Source: Cornus controversa (lineage: Eukaryota; Streptophyta; Magnoliopsida; Cornales; Cornaceae). From it: a DNA stretch of 64,000 bases. The DNA lies in assembly GCA_026545225.1 (NCBI GenBank), contig CM048850.1:8729501-8793500 (forward strand), written 5' to 3'. This document shows, one piece after another, positions 9,138-50,700 of this stretch; the stretch's first letter is position 1; the number at the start of each line of letters is the position of its first letter. Below the pieces are notes generated by a model, which worked only from the letters and a program-made list of their open reading frames with translations, was not told the origin of the DNA and made no database searches. Position numbers and translations under genes: made by a program.

Positions 9138-9142
9138 ATATC

Positions 9143-22382: not shown

Positions 22383-22486
22383 TCAAGGCATTTTACTTTG
22401 AATGTGCCGATGGATATGTACTAAAAACTCAATGTAGGAGAGGCCAGTTTGAGTTTTGTCTTCTACCATATATGTGAAGAACATTC
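22383..22486 (-). CDS. SEC24: SEC24 exon 20: C-terminus and stop
   Basis: Reads [20 protein letters not shown], then [14 protein letters not shown] and TGA, matching the conserved Sec24 tail. Acceptor TTTGCAG. Confidence 0.95.
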
Positions 22487-25400
22487 CTGCAAATAAAAAC
22501 AAAACACAAAATTAAACAAATTAACAGAATGAATGCAGGGTTTCTAGAAGGAATTATACTTTTTGGAATCCATCTTTGGTTATACTTCCAGTAGACAAAA
22601 ATGTTTGCTATATCTTATGGAAAAACAAAAACAAAATATTTAGACAATGGTAAACATTTGTTCATGTTGCATTTTTTATACACATTTAAAAAAATAAATC
22701 AATTCTCATATTACCATTATACAGAATTCCAAAAACCAGATTGTGGGCTTAACACAATCCTACCATTACCCACGTGGCACAATCATATGCCCAACACACC
22801 CTAAACATGCCTGGAAACATTTTCCACAAGATTTGAACATGTTGAAGAATATAAAACAGTAGTTTCCTTTAAATTAGTCTTTTGTTAGTCAGTAGTTTCT
22901 AAATTTAGTAACTTCCTAGTAAACCACCTTTGTTCCATGGTGTGCAATATAAAATATGCGTGTGTGTATATACTCTCTTAACATTCAACAATTGAAGGAG
23001 ATGTAGTTTAACATTTTGATAACTAAGGAAACCAAAACTAAAACCTAAACCCAAAAATTAAAAAAGAAATGATCTAATAATTACTATTTTACAACACCGT
23101 ATTATCTGATTGCAAAAATCTTAAATTCTAGTGTTGAGGTTTTCATATAAATTTGCTTCGGCGTGATCTTTGCTAAATGAAGAAATATAAATGAATACTT
23201 TGAAAATTAGTGTGAAATTAGATTCCACAAGATTCTATAATTGGAGGATTCATTGTAACTGCTTATTTTGAGCAGGTGACAAGAAGCAGTCATGTTGGGA
23301 CGCATTGGGTAAAAGCTCCTTTGGATATAAAAAGAAACATCTCATGAAGTAAATTATATAGGAGTGTTAAATAGAAATGCTATCTAACTTTTCATCTCAA
23401 ATGATATGTAGAACAAAATGGAAAGATCCAATTTCAGCTTGACATTCAAATACCCATTGAGCTTTTGTTTTGAATGAAAGAGATTACTTGATAAATCAAG
23501 TTTGTGAAGGAGAACTGATGCCATTATACTAGTTCATTCATCATAGAGAGTGGCTGTTCAGCAGTTTATATATGGTTCAGCTTTTTGAGCTCTAAGTTGT
23601 GTAAAAGGATTGCTCCAATACACTAACCTGACTGATCTTCCTTCTTGCACAATTTTAAGCTGCAAGAAAACGGAAATAAAAATTTAAAATAATTACTTCG
23701 AGTAATATAAGAATGGATCAGGCAAGCATGTTCACTAAAGCACTAGAAGTTTTTATTGGAGGAAAATAAGAAAAGATGAGCTTTAAAAAACATCGTCATT
23801 AATACCGCATGTAGGAACATCTCTGGTGCCTTATCTCATTTACAACATCATTCAGCTTCTTCGATGAAGGATTGTCATATTGCTGCAGTACAAACTGAGG
23901 CAACCAGAAAAGTAAAGAAATAGAGAAGAGTTAAAATTTGAGAGGTTTCACTACAGGGAAGGTATCCTAGCAAATGAATTATGCTGATTATGACATCATT
24001 TAAATAAAGTTCTCATCTTTAACCATCCAATTGTAATAAACAAAAATCAACCCAAGTACTATAGCACAATAAAATAAAAAAAAGAAGAGGATTTGAATCT
24101 AAGTCTCAATCTTTTGGTAGCTTTTGTTGATGTGAAAATTGAAGAATGAAGCATTCTGATATAAGTGGCTCACTTGGGACAACATATGTATATGACTAAG
24201 ATGCTCAATTTGGACCATTATTTTATACTTCTACATTGGCAAAATCTTTCTTAAAGAAAACAATAATAATAATAAAATAAGGAATGAAAAAGTCAAGACA
24301 ACGATTTCAAATTGAACAAATCAAAGTTGTTCATGATTTAAGATATGCCAATCTCATATATTGGCTCATCTTTTGGGAGATCCTAAATGAACAACCATGC
24401 CATGAGTCATGATTTGGTGCTCAACACTTCGGGTTTAAATCTCAGATGCATGTCATTTCCAAGCAAGAACAAGCGCAGACAAAATGTACTTTAAAAAATA
24501 AATAAATAGAAATAAAAACACCTGAGTAGGAATTTCATCAACAGAGGAAATGCCAAATAGTTGCCGCATGATATCAGGATCCGCAGAGTTCCCAATATAA
24601 ATTAAACAATCCTCCCCATTCTCAAGAAGGTAGATTCCGCCATCACTCAAGTGTTCACTGGAAAGTGGAATAGCAGGAGGTATTACAGATTCATCAATGT
24701 CCTGTCAATTCAGCAGTAAGAAATTAAGTGTTACCCATGAACTAAAAAGAACAACAGTAAACACACCAGTGCAACATAATTCACCTTTGAGTTAAGGTTA
24801 TGAATAGCCATCATCCTGGGGTACACCAGTGGGATTGCTAAAGGAGTAGAAAGTGAAGAAACATAGTTGATCCAAAAGGACCTATTGTCTATCCGCCCAT
24901 CAGTTCGCAGTCCAGTACTTTTAACCAATGCTGAAAAGAAACAAAATTTTCATAAATAAAAACAAATTATTAAGCAGTGTTCAAAATCCTTTTGGAGAAG
25001 TAGCCAAATATTTCCTAAGAGGTAACTTACCCCACAACAGACATGCTGTAATAGGTGAAAACAGTATAATATGAAAAGTAAGCAATGCCAACCACCAACA
25101 AAGAATTATGTAAAATAGATTTCAGAAAAAACTAAACTAACATCATCTAGTCAATAGTATTCAATTAAACACCTATTCGTACATCAACATGAAGGACTCA
25201 TGTTATTTGAATGTATACTCTATTAGAGTTATTATATTTAATAAGGGTAGAATAGTTTTTTACTTTATTTTGTTTGTAAGACTATATATTTTCTTTATTA
25301 GGTTTTCATATTTGTAACTTTACATTCAAATTGTAATAGAAACCGTAGCCCCTTTTTTTTATCTCCTCTCTCTTTGCAATTCTCACATGGTATCAGAGCA

Positions 25401-28400
25401 ATGATCCAGATGAGTCCTTTGATTGGTAATAACATGGAAGAATTGTACATCCCATCCACGCGGTTCGCGGGTCCAATTGTTGTCGCTTCCGTCTAGCATC
25501 GAATGGTTCCGATTCGCACCGTTTGTCTTTGGTATTTGGCCTTCACCTCTCTTCGTACTTATTTTGGTTCATCGTATAGTTCCGATTTGCACCGTTCGTC
25601 TCTAGTATTTGGCTTTCTCCTCTCTTTGGAATGACTGGTGAAAGAGATGATTCACTTCAGTCTATTAGTGTGAGATTAGATAGAAAGAATTATTCGTATT
25701 GGAGTTATTTGATGAAAAATTTTCTTACGGGCAAAAAGATGTGGGGTTATATTAGTGAAATTTCAGGTAAACCCAAGGATGAAAAGGTTGAAAATTATGC
25801 AGATCTGTTAAATGTTTGGGAAGCAAATAATTCAAAAATATCACTTGGATCAACAATTCTGTTGAACATTTAATAGGTACACAGTTGGCAAAGGATGAAA
25901 TAGCCAAGGAGGTTTGGGACCATTTGGCAAGACTGTACACACAATCTAACTTCGTAAAACAATATCAGTTAGAATCTGATATTCGAGCCCTTGAACTGAA
26001 AAGTATGAGTCTTCAGGAGTTCTACTTTGCAATGACAGATCTTTGGGACCAGATGGCTCTCACGAAATCAACAGAACTACGAGCATGTACACCGTATATT
26101 GCTCGAAGAGAGGAACAATGACTAGTTCAGTTTTTGATGGCTCTTTAGTTCCTAGTGAATTTTGGGGAGAAGCAGTTCTTACTGCTGTTAACTTAATTAA
26201 TAAGATTCCATCTTCTCACATCTCAGGTTTTATCACCTTTTGAAAAGTTATATGGACATGCTCCTGATTATTCTTCCTTGAAGGTTTTTGGTTGTGCTTG
26301 TTTTGTTCTCCGTCCTCGTGTAAAGCGTAGCAAGTTATCTTCTCGCTCTGCCATTTGTGTTTTTTTCCATTATGGTAAGGGTCAAAAGGGATATCGGTGT
26401 TTTGATCCAGTTACCCATAAACTCTATGTATCTCGTCATGTTTTGTTTCTTGAGCATATACCATTCTTTTCTATTCCTGCTAGTACTCATAACATGACCA
26501 AATCCAACCTCATCCATATTGATCCTTTCTCTGATGATACTGACAATGTATTCTCAAGTCCCATGCACTACAAATACTAACTCACAAAATGTTTCTAGTC
26601 CTCGTGTTCCTATTACTCCTTTTCCTTATCATTTTTCTTGCAGGCTTCGCACTGATAGTTCTGCAGATATTGGTCTTTTGCTCTCTGATACACCTGAAAC
26701 TCCCTCTCTTCCTGTGGCCACCCAAGTAGTTCCTGAGACTGTGGATCCTCCTTCTCGTTATCTTCAACGTACTCGTAAGTCTACTCAATTATCAGATTTT
26801 GTTTATTCCTCTTATTCATATTCTTTTACTTCCTTTTTAGCTTCTATTCACTGTCTCTCTGAGCTTTTATCCCATAAAGAGGCAGTTCTAGATCCTCTTT
26901 GGCAGCAGGCTATGACAGATACATAAGATTTGGTACCGCTACCGTCTGGTAGAAGTATTGGTTCTCATTGGGTTTATAAAATCAAAACCAAGTCTGATGG
27001 GTCAATTGAGTAGTACAAAGCTAGATTGGTTGCCAAGGGGTTTTCTTAGCAGTATGGTATGGATTATGAGTAGACCTTTGCTCCTATTGCAAAAATGACT
27101 ACTGTTCGTACTCTTATTGCAATTGCCTCTATTCATCAGTGGCATATATCTCAGATGGATGTTAAAAATACCTTCTTGAATGGCGATCTTCAAGAAGAAG
27201 TTTACATGATTCCCCCTCCTGGTGTTTCTCATAATTCTGGATATGTTTGCAGGCTCAAGAAAGCTTTATATGGTCTCAAACAAGCACCCCGGGCCTGGTT
27301 TGAGAAGTTCTCTACTTTGATTACCTCTTTTGGTTTTTGTCCAAGTAATCATGATTTAGCTCTCTTTATCAAGAGTACCTCTGCAGGTCGTATTCTTCTT
27401 TCCTTATATGTTGATGACATGATTATTACTGGTGATAATGTTGATGGGATTGCAGTGTTGAAGTCAAAATTAGCTTGACAATTTGAAATGAAGGATTTGG
27501 GCTCTCTTCGCTACTTTCTGGGTATTGAAGTAGCATTCTCTCCAAAGGGCTATCTTCTATATCAGTCAAAGTACACAGCTGACATCCTTGAGCGTGCTCA
27601 CCTCACTGATACTAGGACTGCTGATACTCCTCTTGAGCCTAATGTTCGATATTCTCCTTCTGATGGTACCCCTTTGCCAGATCCTACTTTATATCGTACT
27701 ATTGTTGGTAGCCTGGTATATCTCATTATTACACGTCCAGATATTCCATATGCTGATCACATTGTTAGTCAGTCACATTGTTAGTAAGTTTGTTGCTTCC
27801 CCAACTACAGTTCAATGGATTGTTGTTCTTCGTATCCTTTGGCATCTTCTAGGCACTCTCTTTCAGAGTCTTTTACTTCCATCGACCTTTTCTTTGGAGT
27901 TGCGTGCATACTCAGATGTTGATTGGGCTGGTGATCCAATAGATCGCAAGTCTATAATTGGTTTTTGTATATTTTTGGGTGATTCTCTTATTTTTTGGAA
28001 GAGTAAGAAACAGACTGTCGTTTCTAGATATTCCACAGAAGCTGAGTATCGTGCTATGGTATCTATTACCACTGAGATAGTTTGGTTACGTTGGTTGCTT
28101 GCAGATATGGGTGTTTCTCTATCTCATCCCATTCCTATACATTGTGACAACAAGAGTGCTATTCAGATTGCTCACAAATCATTTTTTCATGAGTGAACCA
28201 AGCACATTGAGATTGACTTTCATCACACTCGACATCACCTTAAGCATGGCACTATTACTTTGCTTGTTGTCACTTCTTCCATGCAGCTTGTAGACTTGTT
28301 TACAAAGTCACATCCTATTCTGTGTTTTCGTTTTTTGGTTGGCAAACTCTCGATGCTTTTAGCAGCCGCATCGTGAGTCTGAGGGGGGGATATTATAGTT

Positions 28401-31400
28401 ATTATATTTAATACGGGTAGAATAGTCTTTTACTTTATCTTGTTTGTAAGACTATATATTCTCTTTATTAGGCTTTCATATTTGTAACTTTGCATTTAGA
28501 TTGTAATAGAAACCCTAGCCCCTTTTTTTATCTCTTCTCTCTCTTTGCAATTCTCACATACTCGTCTTGCCTCACAAAATAAACATGTCACATGGTTCCG
28601 CATCTCTGCTTAGCACATCTTTAAACATGCTATATATAATTAAAGCGACTTCACGATGGATGTTTTTTTCTCTTCTTTTTTTTTTCGTCTTCCATTATTT
28701 CTCTTGGCAAGACTAGAAGAGGTTCAACAAGTAGAATATTACCATTTATCTGACAAGCCATGTAATTGTCAAGGATTTCATCCACCCACGAAAAAACAAA
28801 AACATTTAGCTCATGAATGAAAGTTTTCTTCCATATGCAAAAATAATTAGAAGAATAATATTCTATGGTAACAGAAATGATCAAGTGTACTGTAGGTGCT
28901 AACAGAGGAATGGAGCTTCAAATGACTCTATTCTAAGGGAAGAAAACATAATAATAATAAACAGAATTAGGAAAACTATAACACTTAGCTAATTCAGCAT
29001 AATTTCATAAGCACTAAGAAACATACCAAGGGTGTATAGAGGCAAAAGTTTAAGTGCCTCCGGAAGAATAAGTTGTCCAGACGATGATACTGTAGCACAA
29101 AATTTGCGATATGAATGCAGGATGTTGATGCAAAGATTTGTCACTTGTTCCCTGATTTGCACCAATGCACTCGAAGGAATATCACTTGCCGCTGCAGATA
29201 AGGCCAAATAATTAGTATAATAAGTATCCTCTTCCGAGAAAAGGGGGAAATGACACTATTAGCTCTCAAACCATTAGAAGATAGACTACCAATGGAGAAG
29301 AACTGCTGGCCCAAAAAAAAGTAACCAAAATTTTTTTTGGACAAAGTGCATACTTTTGGTATACATTCACAATTTAATGCTGGTGGATGCAAGTGAGAGA
29401 GAACATCATAAACAGGGTGGATGCACACAATACAGACACAGAAGTGACAAAGCAAAAGCATTAAGTGCGTGAGACAATCAATTACCTTGCTTCAAGAAAC
29501 AAGCGAATTGGGTGTCTAAGTCAGCCAAGCGGAATAGACTACTCAACATACTTGTGCATGGCAGCGATAAGGTAGAAATTCGTATTCTTCTTTCGCCAAA
29601 CACAGTGGTGTAGAGAAGAGCACACTAGACATCAAAGTGCAAAAAGTACCCGAAAGCTTAGCCATTTTCTCAATACCAGAATAATTACAGGAAGCTTAAC
29701 TATTAAAAGGAAACACGATATAAAATCTGCAAACTGCATAAAGATTACAAACAGAAAATTGATTCTACCTGAAAAGCACATTCTGAGCCATCCTGCAATT
29801 TATTGTCATGTTTTAAGGTTACCATAATAGTTTTGTCACAGTCGATCTGCTCAAAAGAAACGCTTAATTAGAGAGGGGAAAAAAGTTCATACAATGAATG
29901 AACCAAAAACCATTAAATCCCAATCAAACATCCTGCAGTAGCAAAAAGAGAGGAAACAAGGGTAAAGAAAAAGCAAGTGTAAAACAGCAATAATAAAGCA
30001 ATTTGTTTGCATGGGGTCAACCTCAGGAGAAGAGACCAAATACAAGAATGGAATCTCTCAAATAAAGTGTTCATAACATACTACACACTTGCGACAAGTG
30101 ACTACCATACTAAAACATACTGAATCAGATTATTCTGATCTACACTGCTCATTATTATTCATCAAGTTCCTTATTATTCTTCTTACTGATTTTCTGCCTG
30201 AAACAATGTTGAAGAAAGAAAATAGCAATACTTGTATAAACCATAACCCTCTTGAAAGCCACTACAGCACTTTTCCATACTAGAATGGCAATGAACACAA
30301 CTCAATGACACATAAACAAGGGGTACAGATGTATCCACATATATCAGATCACCAAATTCGTGACTAATAAAGTTAAAAACTACGATCCAATCATACTTTA
30401 TTCAGTTGACAGCCTCTAAAAATTTATTTAAAAAAAGACCTTAAGGAGAGAGAGAGAGAGGCCACTATTTTCTCACATTATCTTAAGTTGGGCAGCACAG
30501 TAACAGAAAAAACCAGGAACTTGCTTAATAACTCATTTCAGACATTTGTCCCAGCTGCTAATATTTGGTAACACAATTCTTTTACAAATAAACACATTCC
30601 TATCTATAGAAAACAAAGTTATGGACTATGGGACAAGGAGGCTCATAGCCATCCAGTTTGGCAAAACTTTAATCAAGCATATATTCCAGTCTAGAAAAGA
30701 GTATTACATTAGATATTAAATGGGGCTAACGTTTAACATAAATATATTGTAGTAAATAGATAGTGTGGTTTGTATCATATAATCCCAGTATCTCAGATAA
30801 TATTTAGAATGCGCTTGAAATGAACCAAATTTTAAGCATCAGACTAGTTTATTATTCCCATGGTTTAACGATATTCAATACAGAAGGGAAGACTGAGAAG
30901 CAACATTCGGTAATACATGAATGAGCAGGTATCTCGTAAAAGATGTACTAACCGAGGGTAGGTCAACATCTGTTGGAATGCGTTTACAAAAGTTTCCGGA
31001 GTCTTCTTGAACTTGAAGTCCCTACAAAGAGAAAAATGTTAACCAAATAATAGTGGAATATGTTTTCTTAACAAGTATTTTCCAATTCTACAAGAATATT
31101 AAAAGAGCTATTAATATTTTTAAAGTGGATCAATGACAGAAAAAGTTCAGTATTAAGAGAACTCGCCTGACTACATCTTATACGCATCACAGCCTCAAAA
31201 CCTTGAGGTCTTGTCACATTCCATCGAAGATCATTGTAAAGCTTGGCAGGATCAGAAAGAGCGGAGAAAGGATAATAATAATAAACCTGGAAGAAGATGA
31301 TTACGAGTCAGCCATCTGTAAGCACCTAATAGGACACATGTCTTGGTAAAAGTGGACCAGGACACAACAATTAGTCCTAACTTGATATATACAAGTCCAT

Positions 31401-34400
31401 TCTGTTGCTTCAATGATTGTAACGCATCCTCATGGATGTAGATATTTGAAAGAAAAAAGAAGAGAACAGACACTAAATTCCATAGACATTGAGTCAGATT
31501 CCACGTGGTTCACCAGAATCCACATCAACTGTCATGCGTGACTATTTCCGGAAAACATTTCACAATGACAGCCATGCTATTCTTGAAAGATACCAGAATA
31601 TGGGAATCCAAATGGATCATTGAGAATACGAACATGCAAAGGGGAGAAATTTTCTCTTCCCAAAATGATATTATACAGCAACAAGTTGATGTGTCTTCAA
31701 ACGATGCAACTGGAGTTGATTTTACTAATGATAGAAATGTTCACCTTTAAAAATCATGCAAGTGTTAGTCGCAGGACTATAGCAAGTAAATATTCATGTT
31801 AAATTCAACAAAATTCTGAAAACACGAGTCAGACTTCTTTTCAGTCATACCAAAAACTCAATTTTGAGACAAAAACAAAATAAAAAAATTGTTGCTGAAA
31901 ATGTTGCATGAGATGATTTGTCCTTCCCCTCCCTCTCCCGAAAAAGAAAAAAAAAAAATAACATCTGAAAATTTGATAAATCGGGACAGTTGCACCTATG
32001 AAAAGGTCTTTTTTTTTTTTTTCGATTTTCTGTTAGCTCACTAATTTCATTTAAAATTTGGCAAAATTGATCTTTTTGCGGGTACACTAGAGATTTGGCA
32101 GTATATAAACACTTTATGTATGAGTAGCAAGGATGGCTTGATTGAAGAAAAATAAAACAAGATGAGACAAGCAAAAGTCAATAGTTGACTGAGCATTTTT
32201 TCCCCAACAATTTGAGATTGGCCACATGAATACTGTTCTGTCGTTCCGCTCCATCTAGGTCCATAACCAATTTCATTTCATTTTATCTCTGAACGGTGCC
32301 GCTTTAGGTGAATAGTTGACTGAGCAGTTTTTTCCCAACAATTTGAGATTGGCCACATGAATACTGTTTTGTCATTCCGCTCCATCTAGGACCATAACCA
32401 ATTTCATTTCATTTTATCTCCGAATCGTGCAACTTTAGGTGCCTCACGACTGTGTTCATTCTAATTTATCCTCTCTTGTCTTGCCACATACCCATCTCAA
32501 CACAGCCAAGTTCATTTTATGAATATGTTGTTCCTTAGCCGTCCAATATTCTAAACTTTAGACTAGTCTAACAACTGTTTTATAAAATTTCTTTCAATTT
32601 TCGAAGAACACAATATGCCACAAGCACTCCTCTTTTTTATGCATATTTCCTTGATTTTATGATCAACATCATATCTATTATTGAGACATTGTTTTTAAAG
32701 CCATTATTTCCTTAATTCTATGATTAACATCATTTCCATTATTGAGACATTGTTTTTAAAGCCATTATTCCTTAATTCTATGATTAACATCATTTCCATT
32801 ATTGAGACATTATTTTTAATGCCATTATGTGGTTAAGAAAGCAATACTTCTCCAAGAAGCCTACTGTAGATGGAAACTCTTACGAAAGTGACTTTGACAA
32901 TTTATTCTGATTAAGAACAGTATAAAGTAAGTCTCAGAATGTGTAACATTCAGTAAGATACTTAGGACCAGCTTAGAGTTCCATAAATGAGAAAGTCACA
33001 GCATGTTCCAGCAAGCAGGCTCTCTTAAAATAAGGGTAGCATATAAAAGAAACAAATCTAAATGCCATGTATTTTTGCACTGCAGACAATCATGAAAGGA
33101 TCGCTCACACGAAATAAATACGCAATATGCTTTTCAATAATAGTTGTTAGGACTAGGGACGGACGCTTGAGGACTAACAATTCACAACTTATATTTACAA
33201 CACATGCCAGAACAGTAAATGTGTCCTTGAAAATGCAAGTGCATTATTGAAAATACCTGGCCTCCAGTAGTTCTTGGGATGGCAGAGATAGAAGCAACAT
33301 CTACATAAGTTTGAGTAGTAATGAATACATCCACACAGACCTGAATATGTTGATATAAAGAATTAGCATTGGTTTAATATAATTTCTACGACTTATCAAA
33401 CAAATAATAATAATTTCCACCATAGATCCCAACAAACAATCATGGTGAGTTTTCAGCATCATACATAATCAGGAAAAAAACAAAAAACAAAAAATTTCAA
33501 ATGTCACCTGGTACTCAGCAAGTTCAACAGCCATTGTCTTTAAAGTTTTGTCCACTGGTTGGAGTTGATGATGCAAAAATCCGCCTCGATCTGGTCAAAC
33601 GCCCACCTGTGAAAAAGACAAGAGAAGTGTGATCGAAAGGGCACCGGTGCAGTGCCGGCCGAACACGCTCCGACGACCAAGTTAGAAATCGGAATGGTGT
33701 TTCAAGGGATCTAGAGGAACTCAGAGGGTATTTTTTGCGTACCTGGCCTATGAACCGCCCCTGTATCTATATCAGTGAAAACGAAGCCGTGTCATAGTAT
33801 GGGACTACCTCTTGGAGATAGAGAAGTCCTGGTAAAAATAGACTTTCTGTCCATATCAGCTTGGGCCCATCATTTACGCTACACGTTTCATCCTTTTAGT
33901 CAACCACTCTATCAGATGCCCCCTGTTCATGAGGGTCAAATGCTGGGTCTTATGAACACTTTGGATTACTGATTGGGCTTCTCTATCGTACAAATAAACA
34001 TTTTTCCCTTCCTTTCTTTTCTTTTCTTTCTTTTTTTTTTTCTTTTTTTTCTTCGCGTGGCCCGGGTGGGCCCGGCCGCTGCCCGGCCAAGGCCGGGCAG
34101 CGCCCGGCCTTGGCCGGCGCCTGTGAAAAAGACAAGAGAAGTGTGATCGAAAGGGCACCGGTGCAGTGCCGGCCGAACACGCTCCGACGACCAAGTTAGA
34201 AATCGGAATGGTGTTTCAAGGGATCTAGAGGAACTCAGAGGGTATTTTTTGCGTACCTGGCCTATGAACCGCCCCTGTATTTATATCAGTGAAAACGAAG
34301 CCGTGTCATAGTATGGGACTACCTCTTGGAGATAGAGAAGTCCTGGTAAAAATAGACTTTCTGTCCATATCAGCTTGGGCCCATCATTTACGCTACACGT

Positions 34401-37400
34401 TTCATCCTTTTAGTCAACCACTCTATCAGGAGTAATTTATGGACTTCCTGAAATTCAATAATAAAAACATCACTTAAGCACATAAACAACAATACTATTT
34501 TACTTTTGAACTAATTGATGTCATCTTCACCATGAAAGCTGCAGAAGCACCAAAATAACAAAAAATAGATCCATATATACTAATAGAAAGAGAAGGAATA
34601 AGAACAGTACAGGGGAAAAAAAAGAAAAAAAAAAAGAAGAAGAGGCTCCACAGGGTTCAACCGATTGAGCCATCAATCGACACCTTATGGGAACTTCTCA
34701 TCAAACGAGGCATGCTAGATTTCAAAATAGACTTTTCCTGTAACATCTTGACCGATTGACCATTTGATCGATGCTCACTGTTTTGTAAAACTTCCTGCTT
34801 TGAAATTCATTTTGAAATCTGTGACCAAAACTCCAATTTCATGAATAAGATTAAAACATAATTTTTGAGGCTTCTAAGGATCATATCTAGGTCATAATTG
34901 GCCTCTATGGTTTGCCCTAGATGTGTGAATGAGTCTTGAGACATCAGGTGTTCTTCGTTGATCTTCATCTCTATCTTCTTTTGAGTATGGCCTCTATGGT
35001 TTGCCCTAGATCTGTGAACAAGTCTTGAGAGATTAGCCAGTTAAGGATTGGGTTATTCCTTGGGAAGCATTAGCCTGAGGCTATGAGTGAGGAATGCGAG
35101 TTTGGACTACCAAAAAGCGAAGTTCCTTATGCACATGATGTTGTCAGGTTTATTGAAAGGGGGTTTGTTGACACACTTTCGTTAATTTGAAAGTGGATTG
35201 GTTATCGTTTTGATCTTTCTTGAACTAGTTTGGGAGATAGTTGTTGTTGTGATGGTTAACAGTATGATGATTGCACTACAGCATTGGCGATGTTGGACAT
35301 AGTTTGAGGTGTACCAGTAGCTGGATGTTTTGTGGAAAGCAGAGTGAGGTACTATGGTGATAACCAAAAGCCTCGTTGGTTAAGGAGTGAAAGCCGAGTA
35401 TTGGAGACCGACAAGTTGATAGCTTTATCGGTGGTAAAAGGGAGCTAGGAGAGGTCACTAAAGGTTTTGTGACAACACTCGGGAACTTGGAGTATGTTTT
35501 TAATTTCGAGGACAAAATTCCTTGAAGGTGAGGAGGTTGTAGAGACTAGGTCCAATTTTGACCGGTTTTCTTTTTTCTTCATCATTTTCGTCATAAATGA
35601 GTTTTAAATGATGTTATTGCTGTTTTAAAGGTGGGAAACATGTTTGAGAACTTGTTTAGAGGTTCTGGGAAGTTTTGGGAGTGTTTGGTAAAATTTGAGA
35701 ATTTTGGATCGGGGAGGCCCGGAATGCGGGTTAGGTGGGCCCAAGAATCTGAATTTTTTTTGAAAAAATATTATTTTTGCTTTTAGACCAAATGAAATGT
35801 TTAAGGAGTTAAGGAAGCGATTTCGAAGCCGTAGCCGCTTTCGAAATCGAAAATAGAGATCGGGAAGGTACGTTAAGTGGTTCGGGGGCATTTTGGTCAT
35901 TTCGCGTCCTATATATTATAAATATCTATTGGCTGAGACTTTCAGCCATTTGCACACACAACAAGAATAGCCGGCCATTACTCTCTCCCTCTGCCTCTTC
36001 ACCTTCTCTCTTCATTTCAGAGGCTTGGAACTTGGATTCAGAAGTTCCCGAAGAAGGGTAAAGTGTTCTACGCGGCAAGAGCTTCGGTTTGAACCAAACA
36101 AAAGCTGATTAGGAAGAAGTTGGAGCTTGGGGATTTCTAGGGTTTTGGCTACAAAGTCTCCAAAGTTGAGGTAGGAGAGTCTTCTCCTTCCTTTCATCGA
36201 TTCCTTAGGATTTCTAGTGGTTTATAATTGTGTTAGCATGATCTAGAGAGGTAGTAAGTGGTAGCTTTGAATTCCTTTCTTGTATATGCATGCTAAGAGT
36301 GTTCTTCATATGATGTATGTGAGGCATATTGGTTTTATGCATGTTAAATTTGAGCTTATGTGCCATCTATATAAAATATATGATGTATTTGACATGTATA
36401 AGTGTTATGCATGAGAATTGGTGAATTTGACATGTTATTTATAGCCTAAATGTGTCTCTAACACTGGTTGTGTGAGTACGTATGTTGTATGTGTTGAGTT
36501 AAGGAGCATGAGATTCATTAGGGTTACTTTTGAGCCATTACTTGAGTATGTGCATTTTGAATGCCATGTGTTTGAAAAAATGCATCAAAGGAATAGTTTT
36601 TCATGTTAATGCATTTGATGATGTTTGTGGATGAAATTGCGTGCATTGTAGAGTGTGGGTTGTGTATGTTTAGCATATGATACACTAGGTAGGAAGTGGG
36701 ATGAGTCTTGAAAACGTTGATGTATGATATTGGATACACACATGTTCTGTGGTGAGATTGTGTCTCCAATTGGCAGATTTCACTTGGCGACAAAATAGAT
36801 TCTCTCTCTCAATTGACATATTTCAATTGATGAGGACCCTTGGTGGTTTGTGAGGTTGACAGATTTCAATAAGTGATAATCTTGGTGGTTTGTAAGGTGT
36901 ACAGATTTCAGTTGTAATACTCTCGAAATTAGTAGAATTTAAGCGTTTGAGTCGATGGTTTAAGTTTGGCTCATGAATTGTGAATTCATGTAGAGGGTTT
37001 TGGTTTGTGAAGTAAAGTGGATGTTGTGTTGTTTTTTTGTGTTTACGCATGGTTAATTGAAACCTTGTTATTTTGTTGCATAATTGTATTGTTGATAGCA
37101 TGAGCATTGTGAGCATGCCATGTAGTGTAGGGATGCCATGATTGCATATCATGTAGGTCGGTGTCGGGTCGATGCTTAGGCGGGTTTGGTCATCTCTGCT
37201 GGGCGCAGTCGTATGCTCACTTCTTTCCCCCAAACCTTTTTCAGATAAGACACCAATGGAGGATGATGCTTAGATTGGTTCGTGGTAGCGGTTTGATGTT
37301 CATTTTGGATATTGTATATATGGCTATCCATGCCGGCTTGTGGCATGCGATTTTGTTGTAATTATAGTTGAATTATGAATATGTAACTTGCCTTCTCATT

Positions 37401-38713
37401 TGAATCCTTTTATGTGTGATTATTGAGGATGGCTTTTGGATATTGAGAATATATTCAATGGAGAGTAAACTTTGGGAAAAGTACTTGTTTATAAGAATGC
37501 ATGTAAAGATGTATCGTTCCTTTAAATTGAAGTGTTGAGGACTCGAGGAAAAACTTGTCTAAGTGTGTGTTTTTGGTTTACCTTATGAAATGTATGGATT
37601 GTAGCATCTATGAGGGATAAATGTATAGATTTTTTCAAGTTTTAATCATGTATAAGCTTGAGTATGAGTTGATGAATTGATGGGATGCATTTAGACTTGG
37701 TTTAAATAGGTTTTGGGATTTCTGGGAACTTTCGGTCGCCTAGTTCTCTGCGGCAGCCGACTGAAAGTGTGAGATCCCAAACATTTCAAATTGGGAATCT
37801 GTTTTAGACGACTAGAGGAGGGCTTCAGCCGGCCAAAAGCATCTTTTTGGATGATTGAAACTACTCTCTAGCCGATCGACAGAGTTGGTAAACTGGAGGT
37901 CAGCTGTACTAGGTTTCAGCTGACCGAAGAAGGTTCCAGCCGACCGAAACTAGGTTGACTGGAATTTCATAAAACTTGGAATGGGAATGAGTATGTGAGG
38001 ATGTATAGACTAGAGTGGGACCTATTTAGACGGGTAATGATGAGTATACGCATAATTGACCATGTGCGTAATGATAACTTCCGCAGTTGTATGGTATTGA
38101 TGTTGATTCTCACCGTTCACCCCCATTTCTTGTGCCCTTCCTGGGTGTTGGAAATCGGGGTGTGACAAATCAGGCTTTATTTCTTGCTACTATGTCAAGT
38201 TCATCTACCTTATTTTTAAATATCCACTTAATTCTTACAACATTTATATCTTTAGACCTAAGAACTAATGTCCAAACATCATTCTTTTACCATCCCAAGC
38301 CGAGACAATAGAACAAAGGCCCGACCATCTAACCGATCCAACCAGCAGAGGAAAAGGTGGTGCCTAATGAACTGTTGAAGTTCCTCTTGCATTGAGTTTG
38401 TCGAATATCACTACTCCCTAAGGCTTCTTCAACATTCTTAGGCTCACCAATTGCTATCACTTGGATGATCTCTATGGACTTTATCTGAGGCTTTTAATCT
38501 CTTTTCAGGTACATTAACTGGAGTAAATATTTCAATGTCACAATAGATGATGAGAACTTCAATAAAGATGATAATAAAGATAAAGATCCTCTCTATCTCT
38601 TAGATACACCTCTTTCGCTATCCAAATTTGTAGATAGCTTGAGGCTTTAGTTTTTGTGTAGTTTCTCGGGCCGCGTCCCCCCTTTGGACGTTCTTCAATG
38701 AAATTCTTGTCAA

Positions 38714-38760
<47 letters not shown>

Positions 38761-41700
38761 ATGATACACCTCTTTCACTCTCTTTGAGGCACAAATGAAT
38801 GCCAAAGAAAAGACAGGAAAGTTACCAATGTTTAATACTTATAATAACAAAAAAAAGACAGATGTCATAGCATGTATGGCTTCAAAAGTAGGACCAATCT
38901 ACTAAATGGGTCTACCTCCACTATTTCACAGAGATCAGAAAAGCAAGACAAATGCAACAACAAACTCCAAACACCACCAAGATGTGTTGGAAAATATATA
39001 TTAGATATGTATACCTTCTCCCCTGCAGAGATGTTCGTTCTTCCTTCAGCCTCTCTAGCAGAAAGGGCTCCAATGCCAACTGATGGCAAGACTGTACACA
39101 ACATAGTACAAGAATCAGAAGAGCCATTAATTCTGTTTATCAGTAGGTTAAAGGATCTAAAAGATCCCCAAATAAATAAATACTGATCAAACACATAGAT
39201 GGTAAGTGAAGAGAACTAAGAAAAATCAAGGAGATTGCCAATACAAGGTACAAAGAAGAGAAGTTAATAAAAAGAATCTTTCAGGCTGGATTCAATTTAA
39301 CTGATAGCATGATAAGACATATTTTCAAAGTTCAGAATTAAATCAACATGAACAAATTTCTGGTGCAATGGTTTGAACGCCGCAAAAAAAAAAAGAAGCA
39401 CAAAAACAGATATGGCACAACAAGGACATGACGACACTGCAAATCCTAAAAATTAGGACACAGACATGATGAATAACAAATATATATGTGATGTTGTACT
39501 TTAAGATATTAAGAGTAATATTATTTTTTATCAACGTAAGTTATTGAACAATGAAAACAATGTGTTTGGCTGAATTTTAGAATCTGTATTTTGCAGGGAT
39601 AAAGAAAGTAAGATATAAAGAGGGTTAAGAAAGAGAAAACAAAGAAACAAAGAGGATTATGGTTTTTGTTATGTTGTGGCTCGAATATTGTCTTGGCGTT
39701 GCGACTGGGGTATGACAAAATTTTTTGACTAGTTTTTTCGCTTATGGGTATTGGACCCTATTTAGGACTAAGGGATTTAGGGTTTGGAGTGAGATTATGA
39801 GAAAAGACTGAAAATCGTAGAAAGAGAAGGAGAGAGCTAGAGCTAGGGTCTGGGGTTGAAACTTGTAATCTCTTGATTTTCGTGTAATGAAAATTTTTGA
39901 TGGATCTTCGTTCTGGACGCAGGCACATCGCTGAACCATGTAAATTCATATGTTATGTGTGTAGTATTTGTTTCATTTTCTGTCGTGTTTCGTGATTGTT
40001 ACTTGGTTCATGTTTGTTTGTCATAACAAACTGGTTTCAGAACTTTCGGTTTGATGCTGGTATGACGACCAAGTTTTTGAAAATTGAGAAGTTTAAGGAC
40101 AGGAATGATTTCAACATGTGGCGGGTTAGGATGCAGGCCTTGTTGGTTCAAACGTGTTATCCAAGGTGCTGAAGGGAAGGGATGCATTGCTAGAAAAGTT
40201 GAAGGAAGACCAAAAATATGATGTTATGGAGAAAGCACATAGTGCGATTCTGTTGTATCTAAGTAACGAGGTTTTGCGAGAAGTTTTTAGAGAGACTATG
40301 CCAGATGGGCTATGGAACAAGTTGGAGTCCCATTATATGACGAAATCTCTTGCGAATCGCTTGTACTTAAAGAAACGACTCTTCACTCTTCAAATGTAGG
40401 AAGGTTCGTCTTTGAAAGATCATCTTGACGAGGTTAATGATGTCATCATGGATTTGAAGAATATAGAAGTTAAAGTAGAGGATGAAGATCAGAGTATTAT
40501 TTTGTTGTGTTCTCTACCACCCTCATACGATAACTTTGTCGATACGATGATGTATAGCAAAACTGTTTTGTCTATGGAAGACGTGAAGGCAGCTTTGAAT
40601 TCCAAGGAGTTGCAGAGAAGGACATTTGACGGCAATACAGAAAGTTTGGCAGAGGGCTTGGTTGTTAGAGGGTGAATGAATCAGAAGGAAGGGTCTGGCA
40701 GCAGAGGTCATCCTATGTCTAAGAACAAATCTAAGGTGCTGAGATGTTACACATGTCGCAAGGAAGGACACTTCAGAAAAGATTACTATCTGGATCGTAA
40801 GAAGGAAAAGGAAAAATTCTCTGAAGCCAGTGAGGCGGTGGCTGTTGCAGAGAGTAATGATTCAGATGGTTGTAACATTATCACGATTTCTGTCGGTGGC
40901 TCTGGCAAGGAGTGGATTCTTGATTCCGATTGCTTGTATCACACTTGTCTAAATAGGGATTGGTTTACCTCTTATCGGTCAATTGTTGGAGGGAAAGTTC
41001 TAATAGGGAATAATGTGTCGTGCAAGGTTGTAGGTATCGGTACAATTCAAATCAAGATGTTTGACGATATGGCGAGAACACTCATTGACACCAGGTATGT
41101 TCCAGAACTGAAGAAGAATTGGATTTTCCTTATAACACTGGATTCCATTGGGTGTAGTTATAAGGTTGGAGGTGGAGTCATTAAGGTTTTGAAGGGTGTT
41201 CTTGTGGTGATGAAGGGACTGAAACAACATGGTTTGTATGCGCTGCAAAACAACACAGTCACAAGTTCAGTTGCAGTATCATCCTCGGATCCGGATTTAG
41301 ATACTACTTGATTGTGTAGGGCATATGAGCAAGAGGGGGATGGATGTTCTGAGTAGGCAGGGTCTATTTGGTGGTAAAACTGGAAAACTGTGAGCATTGT
41401 GTCTTCAAGAAACAAAGCAGAGTGAAGTTCAGAAAGGGAATTCATAGGACTAAGGGTACAGTGGATTATATCCATTATGATGTTTAGGGTCCCCTCATGT
41501 TACTTCACATGGTGGTTGTAGACATATGATGATACTGACTGATGATTTTTCTCGTAAAGTTTGGGTTTATATTCTAAAGCACAGGAACGAGGCTTTTGTC
41601 ACGTTCAATCAGTGGAAGACCTTTATTGAAAAGCTGACTGGAAAACAGATTAAACGCTTTTGGACATACAATGGCTTGGAATTTTGTGATATATAATTTA

Positions 41701-44700
41701 ATGAGTTCTGCAAAACTCACTAGATTGTGAGACACCACACAGTAAGAAAAACTATGCAGCAGAATGAAGTTGTAGAACGGATGAATAGAACACTTTTGGA
41801 GAGAGCACGATGTATGCTGTCCAATGCTGGGTTATGCAAAGTGTTCTGGGCTGAAGTTGTTTCCACAACTTGTTACTTAGTGAACCGGTCTCCATTGACT
41901 GCAAGACTCTAGAGGAGGTATGGTTTGGTTCTCCTGGTAGTTACAATAATCTGAGAATATTTAGGTGTAATGCATATACTAATGTCAATGAGGGGAAACT
42001 TGAACTGAGGGCTAAGAAGTGCATATATCTTGGTTATGAGCCCGGGGTTCAAGGATGCAAATTGTGGTGCCTGGATGCTTCGGGAAAGAAGTTACTTGTT
42101 ATCAGAGATGCGACCTTTCATGAGTCTGCGATGCTACTGTGAGATCTTGAAATTTTTTTTTTTTTTAATTAAATGTTTTATTATTATTATTATTATTATT
42201 TTATTTTATTAAAATGTTTTATTTATATTATTTCATTTCTAAGTTTAGAATATGTTTGGATGTTCGGGTTTCCAATTTCAAGTATTGGTTTGATCCCGGG
42301 CATTTTCAAAGTTAAAGAATAGTTCTACGGGATGGTGGGACATGAGGATATGTTAGTCTTTTCCAAAAAGATTTGGGACGATTTCGGCATTTCTTTTAAA
42401 GTGAAGGGTATTTTAGTAATTTCGTATTATGGATGGCACCATCGAAAATTCTTTGAAAAAGAACGGCATTGTGGTAGTTTTAGAGTAAAATGGAGGGTAA
42501 AAGAGACTTTTTACTTGGGGGAGTCTAGAAGCTTCTAGAAGGGGTGGGAGATATAGATGTATACCTATAGGTTTTGAGTTATAAAAGTCAAAATTGTCTT
42601 CCTCTCTTCCCCATAAGTTCTGCCAGCCCTTTCTTTTTCCTCTCCATCTCTCATTTTGCTCTCTTTCTTCCTCCATTGAAGGTGCTTGAAGGCTAGGCTT
42701 GGTCCAAGGTTATTAGTGTTGGTGCTAGTGGCATGTAAGTGTTTCTTTCCACCACTTTTGTCCATCTTTTTCTTCTACTTCCTCTCTTCATCTTCTTTTT
42801 CAATTATTGAAGTTTGAAGAATGAGTGTGGTGTATGGTTTGTAGTATTGGAAGCTTTGGGACTTGAAGACTTCCATTCCTTTCCATTGATTTCTCCATTA
42901 AAGCTTTTGAAGAAAAGTTAGGGTTTCAAATTGAATTTCAAAATTCAATTTGGGGGTTTCTTCAATCCTTCTTGGATTTAAGGTAGGAATGAATTTAACT
43001 TCCTCTTCTAATGTTTTAAGACTTTAGGAAGTGTTAGGTTGAGATTCTAACATGAATTGCAAAATGTGTAAATTAAAGTTTACTTTATTTCATGAAAATT
43101 TGGGGCTTTTGTGTTTTGAGCATACTAAATGTGTTTAGACCTTGGATTATACCTATTAGCATTATTAGGGAGGTTTACCATTGAGACATGTATACCATTG
43201 GATCACTTGTACTCTTAATTTGAAATTAAAGTACACTTTATTGCATGATAACTCTAGTGTTGTGTAAGAGCTAGGAGTTCTACATTACTTTTATAGTAAT
43301 TGTGTTAATGATTATAAATTATGGAAGTCTTGAGTCATCCGTTAGTGTCTTGGAATGAAAAGCTTAACTTTTGTTCAAGAATAGTATTTTGGGAAAAAGT
43401 AGTGACATGTATGCTTTGTTTGCTAATGTGTGTTCAAGCATCCTACATTTTACTTAATTAGTGTGTAGGAATGCTAATGGATGAATTTGGTTTCATTTGA
43501 ATTCATTTGACAACTTATGGACCACTAGGGGTATTTTGGTCATTCATGTGTACATTAGTTGAGAATGCATGCCAGGTGGTTATTTAAAGTGCCTAAGTGT
43601 TTGTATACGCCTTTTGAACATGTTGAGCATGATAGGTAACACTTAAGGGAAATTTTGGAATTTTGACCACACTTTAATGTATGGAACTAGGGCTCCACGG
43701 TGCAACATGGCTTTTGGCATGGAACTGGAATTGTTTAAATGCTTTAAATTATGCTTAGAATGTACTAAAGCATGATTTGGTGTTAATTTAATATTTTTGA
43801 TTGGAAAGTTCAAGTATGCTTGCTAGGTAGCATATAAATTGCCTAGATGTACTACTTTGGTTAAATTATAAATTTGGTTATGCTTTGATACTATATATAT
43901 GCAAGCATTGAAATTAAAGGTTTAAAGCCCAATTGAAAAGGATTTGAAGGTTTAAAGCCCTATTGAAAAGAGACATTTACTCACATGGAATTTTGCTTAA
44001 GGAATGACTCATTGAAAGCTTGGTGCACATAGATGTAGAACCAATGCTATGAGGATAATTATTATGGACATTGTTATTACATTGTTCATATTGATCATTT
44101 TTTTCATACTGTTCATATCATGTGTGAGTTATGATTTTCGAGAAGTTTTAAATAGTCGGAATTGAAAATAGAGGCACAAAGATGCCTGGTGGTTGATAAG
44201 TCCACCTGACTGGCCAGTGGTTTCACGTCGACCTGCGGACTAGTAATCCGGAATGACGGAATGTACAGAAGGACTGTCTGAGGACTGCTCTGTTGATGCG
44301 TGTGTCACGACTATTTGAGTTACATGTGGTGTGTGTGTGTGTGTCATATGCACTGCATCTAAATAAGCAAACTGTTCATTTCAAGTTTTACGCTTTTTAA
44401 ATCATTATAAATAGGTTTATTTCAAGAGTTTGAACCTTTGAACTAAAATATTAGCCTAGGTATCTGATTAAAAATAAGTTTAATAAACCAACAACTTTTA
44501 AGTAATCAAGTAATGACCACCATATTATTGAAAGTTATTAAACAACATCTCATACTTACACTTCAACCCAACTTTCTTTCTAAAACTTTCTTAAAAATCC
44601 CCAAGAATGTAACACGCGTGTTCGACACGCATCCATGGCGTGTCAGACATGTGTCCACGGCGTGTTCATGTCGTGTCTGACATGTGTCGAGGGGTGTTCG

Positions 44701-47700
44701 GCACATGTCTATTGTCCGACACAAATTCTTTGACTATTTAACTTGAAAAACAAGATCTATTTAGGTATATATCTTTTGACTTGAAAAACAAGATATATTT
44801 AGTTCTTGGCTACTAAATTGATTCAACATCATAATAATGGTTGAACATGAACAATGCATCTATGAATAAATTGGAAGTAGAGACTTTCTTTGCACTTCTA
44901 TGCCTGAAAAAAAGCACGCCTGACTGAAATAAAACAAGTACGCATCAACACTATCATAGTGTTTTACTCCAAATGCACTCAAATTAGAGATATCAGTTCA
45001 CAAGCTTGCCTGACTGAAATGCTAGGAGTTTCCCTCCAGTACTCTTCATTGCCAAAAAAGCAGCCTGAAGTAATAACAAAATTATATAAATATCAATGCA
45101 TATAATCATTGGTTCAACATCCATCCATCCATATACATGTGTATATATCGGGTATATATAGAATTCCATAATTTCTCCTTATTAGATGGAATCTACAAAC
45201 TATAAGAAATAAAAATAATTACAAAATTAAAAGTCCGTTGCACAAATATGTGTGCTAGTTCAAAGACTAGTGATTGCAATTTGCAATAGAAAAATGATTG
45301 TATCGAGCATTTCAACTTCTAGCATCTCTACTGTGGCAGACACAATTTTAACACTTAAATAATATAACATTTTTCGTCATGGCAGACACAATTTTCCACA
45401 AAACCACAAGCATCTAAGCTCATTTATCATTGAGCTTGCCTGACTAAAAACTGCATATTATCTCTAAAATTCCTCCTTCCCAACATCCACACCTGACCTC
45501 TCCAAAACCAAAACCCAGGCCCTGATAGAGTGTATTCTCCTCTTTCACCCCCAGAAATTCAGTTTTTTCTTCTTGCATTACTTCCATACACACCAAATAA
45601 GTTTTGGCGATTTCATGCTTGTAAGGCATGCTGGCATGTAGCTCTTCACAGAAATATTAAATCAAACATTGTTCACAACTGTAAATTGAGTTCTTTAAAT
45701 TCTTCTATTTTTCTGCCACTTTCATATATCTGTTCCCCAAATGTGTCAGTTAAGACTTCTTAATATATCTGTTCCCCAAATGATTCAGTTAAGACTTTTT
45801 GCTTTTGGGACAGCACCACTACAGATTTTGACTTCAATATTGCAATGATAACAAAGATTTTACATCTTATTATTCAATGGTGTACAATATAGCAAAATTT
45901 TAAAATAAGGACATGCTCCAAAAATAGGGCCAAATGGCAAAAAAATATTGTAAAGCCACCCTCAGCAATTGGGTTGGGGCTTCACTGAGTTCACAAAGGG
46001 TCTCACACATTTATCAATCATTAGAGGGACGACTAAATTGCATACCTTAATTGCCGCACCAAAGGCTGAATCAGCAGTTTTATTATTATGAAACATGGAT
46101 GGGATGTTCTCCAGCAGCAGTTCTAAATGTTGACGGCACTGAGTCCCCAAACAAACAACAAACTCATTCAAAATCACTTGAAAAATTCTTGAAGGAATAA
46201 ACAATCAATTTAAAAGAATATGCTAAAATGTGAAAACCAAGAAATTCAAAATTAGCAAAGCTGACCTCAGCAAGTGGAACAATAACATCGGTATGGAGAG
46301 GAGTGTAAATATCTTGCACATCAGGAACTATCAGCATCAATGGCTGTGCACATAGATTGAAAATTAAAAAATGGGATCCATCACAATTTGTTGAAGTAAA
46401 ATTGTCGCTCATAATTTCAATTTATTTTTCAGCCATGATGTATAGCAACATGGACATTGGATAGCATAATATCCTCTACAATTTCACAGAGAGAACATTT
46501 TGAAACATAATATATCAAAAACAGAACTCAAATATGATAAACCAAAAGAAAATGAGAGGGATGGGGGGTGGTGGTGAACATGCAAATTACTTCTCGAGCA
46601 GAAGAGCATATGAATGCACATCATATCAGACAAGACGATTCAAGAAATTATCTACTGTCAATCCCAAAAAATTACAAGCCCAATAGAAAAGAAGCAGGAA
46701 TCTAACTAGAAAGTTAAAAACATAAAATTAGTTTTCAATTTAACTGTAGATTTGAAACCAAAAATGTTGCAACTGAACACCGACCTGCTGTGATGCATGT
46801 TTCAGATTGTAAAAATGGATGGTCGAGTCAAATGTAGCAATGCCAATCATTGTCCGAGGACCCTCCTGCAAAAACAGAACTGTGAAATAATGGGAATTTT
46901 TTATATTGATTTAGCAATGTACAGGAAAAACATATATAGGCAAAAAACAGCCTATAAATCTGGAAACTAACATCTTATAAATCTGAAAACTAACAGCCTA
47001 TAAATCTATAATATATAGCCCAGAATACAGTCCCTATAAATCAGGGATAATAGTTATAGCCGGTGATTTTTACACTCCCCCTCAAGCTGGTGAGTGGATA
47101 TTTTCCATTCCCAGTTTGCTAATAATAGACCGAAATGCAGAACCACTCAATCCTTTAGTTAACACATTTGCAAGTTCACCCTCGGTTGACACAAATGGAG
47201 TACAAATCAGTCCGCTATTCAACTTCTCCTTTATAAAATGTCTGTCTACTTCCATATGCTTGGTGCGATCATGTTGCACAGGGTTATGTGCAATATTAAT
47301 TGCTGATTTGTTATCACAATATAGCTTCATAGGTCCTTCCCATGTAATCTTCAGATCCTCCAAAATTATTTTCAACCATAGAAGCTCACAAACTCCTAAT
47401 GCCATAGCTCTGAACTCAGCTTCTGCACTTGACCTTGCAACTACATTCTGCTTTTTGCTTGGGAAGTCGATCTTCTGTCATCAACTAATCCGGCATAATC
47501 TACATCCGTGTCACTGCCTCTTCTAAACAACACCCCGTTTCTTGGAGTTCCTTTTAAGTACCATAGAATTCGATGTGCTGCTTGAAGATGTACTTCTTTT
47601 GGATTATGCATAAATTGACTCACCACTCCTATAACATAGGCTATGTCTAGTCTGGTATGAGAAAGATAGATTAGTTTGCCAACTAATCTCTAATAGGATT

Positions 47701-50700
47701 CTCTATCCGCCACCACTTCTTCTGGAGCTTCACAAAGCTTGTGATTTTGTTCAATGGGTGTCTCCACTGGTTTACACCCTATTTCCCTGTCTCAATTAAT
47801 AAATCCAGCACATACTTCTGTTAGGTAATATTCATACTCTTTCAACCCCAAGAAATTCCACATGTACTTGGAAAATTTAAAGGTCCTCTATAGCAAGAGT
47901 GCTATCTTGAGGACTCCAAACTTAGCAGCATTCCAAGATGTCCTTGCAAACTAATTTCTACAAATTGTTCACATTCACACAACTATAAACTCAAGAACAT
48001 AACTTTTTGCTCCTTTGCCTCCCAAATATCTAACTGTTCCCGCTATATGCTTTCAGTCTTCAAAGCCTCTAAAATGCTACAACTGCCACACTGAACCACG
48101 TACAACAAACACCATAAAGCAAGACATTCATCGAGCCATTTCTACCCAAAAACTTACCAAATATCATCATTCTCCTTATCCGCCCGGTCATGTCTGATGA
48201 CAAATATACGAGCTATAGATTCAACACTACAGAAACATGGGAAAAACATACCAAGAGACAAAAAGAAAAAGTATAAGATAGAAACACGTCAAAAACAAAG
48301 TCATGGGTGCAAAATGAAAACAGATTCTCCCGCTACTTAGATAACTTCATCAAACAATAGTCATCCGCCTCCTCCTTCCTATTTTTATTGGTTAAAACCT
48401 TTACCATATCTCATTTCATTTACAACTTTTATGTAAGAAGCTCGTATATTAAATTTTCTTTTACAACTTTGCTGTTTTTTCTATTAATAACACTCAGCAC
48501 CCCCATTGCCAAAACTACGTCAATCATAAATTCCTATTTCTTCCCAAAAGCAAAATGAACCACATCAAATCGAACCCAAAAGATCTGTTGAACTCTCCAG
48601 AATTTACTTCACCAAGCTCACTCAGAAGGATTCCCTAAGAGAGCAAACAAAGGTCAAGAAGGTGCCATAAGTTCTTAAGAGGAATTATCATCACAAGCCA
48701 TAATAAGAATGCACACTAAAATGGATCTAATGAGTAGCTTCTTGCAAAGATAAACTCTAGTCCCAACTCATGACTAAAGTAAAATTCTTACTCCCAAAAA
48801 CTTCTGCATAAAAAGTGCATTACTTATAAAGCTTCATTCACCAATCATTTTTTGCTCCGATTTAAAAAAAAAAATCAGAAAGAGAAGCACGGCATATATA
48901 TAGAGAGAGAGTAAGTGTCATGACTTGTCCCATGCTAACCAAATACTGTCCGATTTGTGTTACATAAGCACTTGAGGTTTTCAAAATGTGTCTACACAGG
49001 TAGGAGGCATCTCCAATCATAAGTGCCAGCAATTTCCTCCACACCCCCCCCCCCCCCCCCCCCAACCTCAGGTGATGTGAAATGTCACGATCACCCCCTC
49101 TAGGGACCAGCATTCTCGCTGGAATGCCCCTCCGACTAGGAATTGGCTCTAATACCATCAGTCAAAACTCACCCCCAAGTTGTGCAGAAATTGTTCTACA
49201 TGGCTTTCATTATATTTGCAATTTGAAATTAGTTCTAAGCATGTAGTCATGAATCATTTAAACATATTTCAAATAAAAATCCCATATTCACCATAATACA
49301 CAATCCCATATACATATTTTTTGCATATATATACAAAAGTGTTTTCATATTTATTAAACTATATTCTACATATTACTAGGACATAGATATCTTTGTAAAT
49401 CAGTAGAATACAACTTACTTGATGTCACAATCAACCCCTCTTGGGACCAGCGTTCTCACTGGTGTGACCCTCCAACTGGGAATTGGCTCTGATATCATCT
49501 GTCAGAACTCACCCCACGTTGTGTATAAATTGTTCTACATGGATTTCATTATAACTGCAATCTGAAATTAGCTCTAAGCATGTAGTCATGAATCAATTAA
49601 ACATGTTTCAAATAAAAATCCCATATTCACCATATTACACAATCCCATATATTTTTTGCATGTACATACATCTAAAGTGTTTTCATATTTATTAAACTAT
49701 ATTCTATATATTACTACTTTACTAGGACATAGAAATCTTTGTAAATTAATAGAATACTACTTACCTGAGTCTCTAAGTTGTTGATTCATTGATACATTAA
49801 TTAGTCTCTCTCCAAGTTGTCGTCTTCTTTTTACAAGGCTATAGAGAATATGATAAAAACCCTTGTTTAAGGAATTATATATTTAAGTTATACCCTCTCT
49901 AACAGCTTAAGCTTTTAGAGTAGATGGTTGTCAACATAGTATTAGAGCAGGTAAGGTCATGTGTTCAAACCTCACCATCACCTTGATAATTAAAATTGAA
50001 ACACATGTTGGACCAAAAAAGGGCTACAAGTGAGGAGGTGTGTTGAAGGATTTATATATTTAAGTTATATCCCTCTTTAACAGCTTAAGTTTTTAGAGTA
50101 GATGGTTGTCAACAACCCTAATTATAATTTTCTCAAACTTGTATACTAATGATATTTTTCTTTTGTTTGGTTACATGGTTGCATTATATTTAATTTCTTC
50201 TATCCTTATTAGGGAATAGTAGGCTATCCCTTACTATTATTTTTAATTCACTCATAATTATATTATCATTTTACAATATTACCCTTAAAACAACTTCTTA
50301 TTTACTATTTTAAGTTTAAGGTTATTACATTCTACCCTCCTTAAAATAAATTTCGTCCCCGAAATTTGCATAATTGATTCAAACAAATGCAAATAATTTC
50401 CCCTCATTTCAGACTCGATCTCCAAAGAAGATTTATCCTCCTTGTGATGGCTCCACAAAACTCTCGCTAAAGCTATCTCCTTGCATCGCAATTACTTAAC
50501 CAGCCAATCAATAATGCAAACAGGCACCTCAACATATGATGCATCCGTATGTAACTCCGTAGTATCATAATTAATCACATACAAATCACATTTGAGACAC
50601 TTCCTCAACATAGACACGTGGGATACATCTTGAATTGCCGACAAACTAAGAGGTAGAGCAAGCCTATAAGCCACACTCCATATCTTCTCAGTAATCTCAA

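Follow-up and report, generated by a model that had tools for sequence, protein, structure and literature searches.

Long terminal repeat (LTR) retrotransposons that have been shrunk by illegitimate recombination are a known kind of genomic remnant. For the Retand lineage, antisense TRP28 open reading frames (ORFs) and tandem repeats have been described, in a source whose accessible part does not mention GC content (PMC11963269). In Arabidopsis, significantly decreased expression of SEC24B and SEC24C affects gametogenesis (cited in the accessible part of PMC10570158) and, therefore, the loss of one SEC24 copy would be expected to need redundancy. Here we describe a deletion derivative of a Retand-like Ty3/gypsy element that splits a coding exon of a SEC24 gene of Cornus controversa, in a stretch of 64,000 nucleotides that we refer to as the window (C6:8729501-8793500; the genome comprises 771.7 Mb, distributed over 61 contigs). 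A literature search revealed no report of an LTR retrotransposon insertion in a SEC24 coding exon.

The part of the SEC24 gene that lies in the window (22383..57544, minus strand) comprises 20 coding exons, reaching from the zinc finger to the stop codon and amounting to 673 codons when the element is left out. In a Pfam analysis its product displayed the zinc finger, trunk, beta-sandwich, helical and gelsolin domains of SEC24, with the Sec23/Sec24 trunk domain spanning residues 84-324, and the solved structures matching a 340-residue part of the product are those of Sec24 proteins. The inserted element is located at 33566-34428 on the minus strand (863 bp), in the same orientation as SEC24 when judged by the sense of pol in its relatives, and has TG...CA ends and flanking ACTCC copies. 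It lies in the middle of a single 72-nt exon (exon 9; exons 8, 9 and 10 are numbered as in the initial annotation of this stretch) whose borders are AG and GT and whose ends are both in phase 0. The 5' part of the split exon consists of 19 nt (34429..34447, minus strand) and includes, next to the element, the 5' copy of the target site duplication (TSD; 34429..34433, minus strand), while the 3' part consists of 53 nt (33508..33560, minus strand) past the 3' TSD copy (33561..33565, minus strand). Exon 8 (39015..39091, minus strand) ends and exon 10 (33257..33340, minus strand) starts in phase 0. When the element and one ACTCC are removed, the flanks yield 72 nt encoding 24 residues.

When the genome was searched with the SEC24 product, a tandem copy was detected about 150 kb away in the same orientation (C6:8603-8632 kb). 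The search also yielded a third copy on C1 (104.83-104.89 Mb) and, on C5 (63.85 Mb), a relative that is more distant. The corresponding exon of the tandem twin (C6:8614169-8614240) has 72 nt, is identical to that of the window at 71 of 72 positions and contains a single ACTCC, and in the C1 copy the matching exon also has 72 nt and is uninterrupted. In agreement with this, a blastn alignment of the window with the tandem copy stops at 33565 and restarts at 34429. TG...CA ends, long direct terminal repeats, a 5-bp TSD and an empty site in a homologue are thus all found together, and the insertion in exon 9 is confirmed as genuine. Chance is of no concern here, because the exon agrees with the empty site of the paralogue in 71 of 72 bases and the alignment breaks exactly at the element borders. 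Since the site is empty in the tandem copy, the insertion must be younger than the tandem duplication. The initial annotation had proposed an LTR-derived insertion with an ACTCC duplication in a SEC24 exon, a remainder of 72 nt and 24 codons after its removal, phase 0 at both exon ends and 19 further exons that are open, and all of this was borne out by the element ends, the TSD, the empty site and the exons themselves. It had also suggested a search for an intact paralogue, and the tandem twin, with its exon whole, is such a paralogue.

The element retains two LTR copies and a short interior. Its 5' LTR (34120..34428, minus strand) measures 309 nt, lacks the last 40 nt of the 349-nt LTR of the family and keeps the motif TATAAATA. 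The residual interior of 205 nt (33915..34119, minus strand) consists of a GC-rich stretch, a purine run and a polypurine-tract-like AACAGGGGGCATC that adjoins the 3' LTR, which is complete (33566..33914, minus strand; 349 nt) and has a TATA-like box TATAGATA. Over 309 positions the LTR copies show one mismatch (C at +33767 and T at +34281), so that the single difference noticed in the initial annotation stands, although its denominator of 307 has to be replaced by 309. This sole difference falls in the TATA-like box, which reads TATAGATA in the 3' LTR and TATAAATA in the 5' LTR as well as in all seven relatives compared. The truncated 5' LTR is joined directly to the GC-rich interior and no primer-binding site is left between them. 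With up to two mismatches allowed, this LTR-interior junction occurs once in the 772-Mb genome, whereas the normal continuation of the LTR, used as a control, was matched 344 times. Among the matches listed, LTR sites form pairs about 8.8-9.7 kb apart, and roughly 8.7 kb are therefore missing from the element of the window. In summary, the element derives by deletion from a Retand-like Ty3/gypsy element of roughly 9.5 kb and has lost the primer site together with almost the entire interior. A solo LTR was considered as well and was rejected, as two LTR copies and interior sequence are present.

The family of the element was characterized from its copies elsewhere in the genome. A first search with the element gave 75 matches in the best 40 of 2367 candidates, and in that set no match except the window itself extended past position 559 of the 887-position query. 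In all seven other copies fetched (L002-L008) the 349-nt LTR adjoins the inner border AACAGGGGGCATC. In the four relatives whose 5' end was fetched, a 5-bp TSD is present and GTTGGCGCCGTCTGTGGGAA directly follows the 5' LTR; GTTGGCGCCGTCTGTGGGAA is read as the putative primer site by its position. In three of these relatives both LTRs measure 349 nt, with 2, 3 and 3 differences between them (the fourth, with a 346-nt 5' LTR, was left out), and the family holds other young copies in its own genome. No second LTR was found in the first ~7.7 kb of the interior of two relatives. Copies L051 and L052 encode reverse transcriptase (RT), RNase H, RVT_3 and integrase in sense, and L002 contains, between pol and the 3' LTR, an antisense ORF with a Pfam match to PF04195 (TRP28); both the pol domains and the antisense ORF are lost in the window copy. 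A similar antisense ORF appears in the ORF listing of L006, which was not scanned with Pfam. A GC-rich repeated stretch precedes the 3' LTR in the family copies. From these domains and features, rather than from an RT phylogeny, the family can be called Retand-like. We also observed that the LTR carries a strong-looking splice acceptor (TGTCTTTTTCACAG/G; window position 33606; the slash marks the splice border), directly followed in the 3' LTR of the window by the donor CAG/GTGGGC (33607), which is present in L002 as well; the other six of the seven fetched relatives have GTTGGC at this place.

If substitution rates of 1.3e-8 and 6.5e-9 per site and year are assumed, one difference in 309 LTR positions places the insertion at 0.12-0.25 My ago (95% Poisson interval 0.003-1.4 My), in agreement with the recent event postulated in the initial annotation, and on the same assumed rates the tandem duplication occurred 3-6 My ago. 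The twin has all 20 matching exons, each of them open, and 674 codons; with 34 substitutions and one codon gap between them, the two products are 94.9% identical over 673 residues. In the C1 copy, 19 of 20 exons were compared and all were open. In the stretches fetched, 809 of the 10844 noncoding sites aligned differ between the twins, and of 51 indels 43 have a length that is not a multiple of three. At this noncoding rate, ~79 substitutions would be expected in the window coding sequence for one unconstrained lineage since the duplication, corresponding to 2.8 stops and 4.0 frameshifts, that is about 7 lesions. Apart from the element none was observed (P about 0.001): the other 19 exons are open, and no premature stop interrupts the 673 codons. 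The absence of lesions where about 7 were expected indicates constraint for most of the time since the duplication, and the earlier claim that the reading frame was intact until the insertion is upheld for the exons examined. That annotation had also described a gene of 20 exons, which is correct for the window and incomplete for the gene, as matches to the preceding region were found at C6:8808974-8809287. In the stretch C6:8793501-8809900, three further upstream exons have matching frames at about C6:8808.97-8809.9 kb, at least 15 kb past the window end, that are open by eye, with splice borders unchecked, in the window copy and in the twin. The SEC24 gene thus spans more than 57 kb.

What the insertion would do to the transcript was examined with a crude splice-site model, for which this gene itself supplied 19 donors and 20 acceptors. 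Reading from the native acceptor of exon 9 gives EVHKLL, 13 further codons and then a stop inside the LTR. The element offers good acceptors in sense orientation, among them 34120 and 33606, and a good donor at 33607. When paths of up to three segments were enumerated from GT donors and AG acceptors scoring at least as high as the third-weakest native site, none of them kept the exon-9 residues in frame; three alternatives were in frame and free of stops, adding 6 or 12 residues encoded by the element, all of them lacking the exon-9 residues. We propose the following course of events. A Retand-like LTR retrotransposon integrated in sense into exon 9 of one of two SEC24 copies that had recently arisen by tandem duplication, and ACTCC was duplicated in the process. 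Messages using the native exon-9 acceptor would be truncated after those 13 codons and probably degraded, so that the window copy is probably a new pseudogene. In a minority of transcripts exon 9 may be skipped, which would keep the frame but remove 24 residues of the trunk domain. Persistence of the tandem twin and of the C1 copy is the probable reason why the loss was tolerated. On the DNA evidence, it is highly probable that a redundant tandem SEC24 copy was freshly pseudogenised by a deleted retrotransposon, and the loss to the plant was probably that of a spare copy, not of a function. The suggestion in the initial annotation of a consequential knock-out of a coat protein complex II (COPII) gene was not supported in this form, because every exon read is open both in the 94.9% identical twin (20 of 20) and in the C1 copy (19 of 20). 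Its observation is correct and its history mostly right, and the event is of an ordinary kind.

An alternative is that the element hit a copy that was already dead. Between the twins dN was 0.022 and dS 0.067 (dN/dS 0.33), as compared to dN/dS values of 0.15 and 0.14 for the two twins against the C1 copy (dS 0.35-0.37). When changes were polarised by the C1 copy, the window lineage had 17 nonsynonymous and 12 synonymous changes; these counts omit one codon in a C1 exon that was not fetched, two unassignable changes (one synonymous and one nonsynonymous) and the codon gap. Moreover, one codon is missing from the window copy, and two of its exons have GC donors where the twin has GT, namely 45010..45064 (minus strand; CAGTCAG/GCAAGC; an exon outside the C1 comparison) and 31167..31286 (minus strand; CAG/GCGAGT; GT also in the C1 copy); in these respects the window copy falls short of perfect integrity. 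The twin, however, shows a similar ratio (15:17; Fisher p = 0.44), so faster decay of the window copy than of its twin was not significant in the polarised counts and the relaxation is common to both copies. Measured against the older divergence, both twins look relaxed, without a significant excess in the window copy. Together with the missing lesions, this makes an already dead target unlikely, while a loss of function shortly before the insertion is possible. Another explanation assumes that exon 9 is mostly skipped and that a working SEC24 shorter by 24 residues is made. Because exon 9 measures 72 nt and is in phase 0 on either side, skipping would leave the frame unchanged, and the remaining 19 exons are open. 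The residues lost would be 249-272, inside the trunk domain, and 18 of these 24 are identical in the three copies; besides, the native exon-9 acceptor is intact and scores 9.0, which is mid-range for this gene. A functional splice variant of this kind is accordingly doubtful. A gene of new form, persisting beside the intact twin, seems very unlikely: it would be generated either by exon-9 skipping that alters the trunk or by the 5' LTR, with its TATAAATA upstream of the strong donor at 33607 (CAG/GTGGGC), driving LTR-started transcripts that are spliced to exon 10 and encode the C-terminal part of SEC24 under retrotransposon control.

As a single assembly is the basis of this work, the insertion might also be an assembly artefact or a heterozygous allele taken from one haplotype. 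The perfect 5-bp TSD and the exact LTR ends speak against an artefact, as does the junction being unique in the genome, a feature not readily explained by misjoined repeat copies. A search with 31200-33561 brought up no second near-identical locus among the best 40 of 448 candidates; next in rank was the twin, at 89-92%. We consider this explanation quite unlikely. The element is short, flanked by LTRs and devoid of the coding region of its relatives, and could on these grounds be a mobile non-autonomous mini-element resembling terminal-repeat retrotransposons in miniature (TRIM). Its junction is single-copy, where a mobile element would be multi-copy, its primer-binding site is gone and the 349-nt family LTR is longer than typical TRIM LTRs. 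A mobile mini-element is thus extremely improbable compared with a one-off deletion derivative and was rejected, with one junction as opposed to 344 control matches. Several points weigh against fresh pseudogenisation of a redundant copy as we propose it. The single LTR difference leaves a wide age range, and the raised dN/dS of both twins implies that constraint on the pair had already weakened. A null allele and exon skipping both fit the DNA sequence, and a heterozygous insertion or an assembly error is compatible with the single assembly. Redundancy of the twin is deduced from open exons, not from expression, and the openness of both copies applies to the exons fetched, not to those further upstream.

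Other element remnants are distributed over the window. In or near the SEC24 introns, Pfam detected Ty1/copia-type pieces with SH3_retrovirus and RVT_2 at 26197-26574 (+) and 27074-27472 (+), with Pol_BBD at 40676-41305 (+) and with RVT_2 at 62867-63223 (-). The frames at 27534-28190, 47085-47477 and 59812-60165 look copia-like by eye and had no Pfam match. A possible non-LTR element remnant at 5827-12010 (+) has a zf-RVT match at 11654-12007, while its frames 5827-6312 and 6248-6814 gave no Pfam match.

Fresh pseudogenisation of this SEC24 copy would provide a clean case, with a rough date, of a young gene duplicate brought to an end by a retrotransposon, in which one genome holds the interrupted copy, its empty-site twin, an outgroup copy and the source family of the element. 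It opens the question of how much time passes from the duplication to the loss of a coat-protein gene copy. The window gene, which is putatively of the SEC24B/SEC24C type, resembles such plant COPII cargo adaptors in its five domains and differs from them in being one of a recent tandem pair and split by an element. Family copies of that element resemble the Retand lineage as described in the accessible part of PMC11963269 in their sense pol, antisense PF04195 ORF, repeat-rich region before the 3' LTR and 5-bp TSDs, whereas the window copy, which has no primer site, is reduced to LTR pieces and an interior of 205 nt. Finally, like LTR retrotransposons shrunk by illegitimate recombination, the element keeps its TSD and parts of its LTRs around a large internal deletion, and unlike those remnants it has also lost the end of its 5' LTR and interrupts a coding exon.

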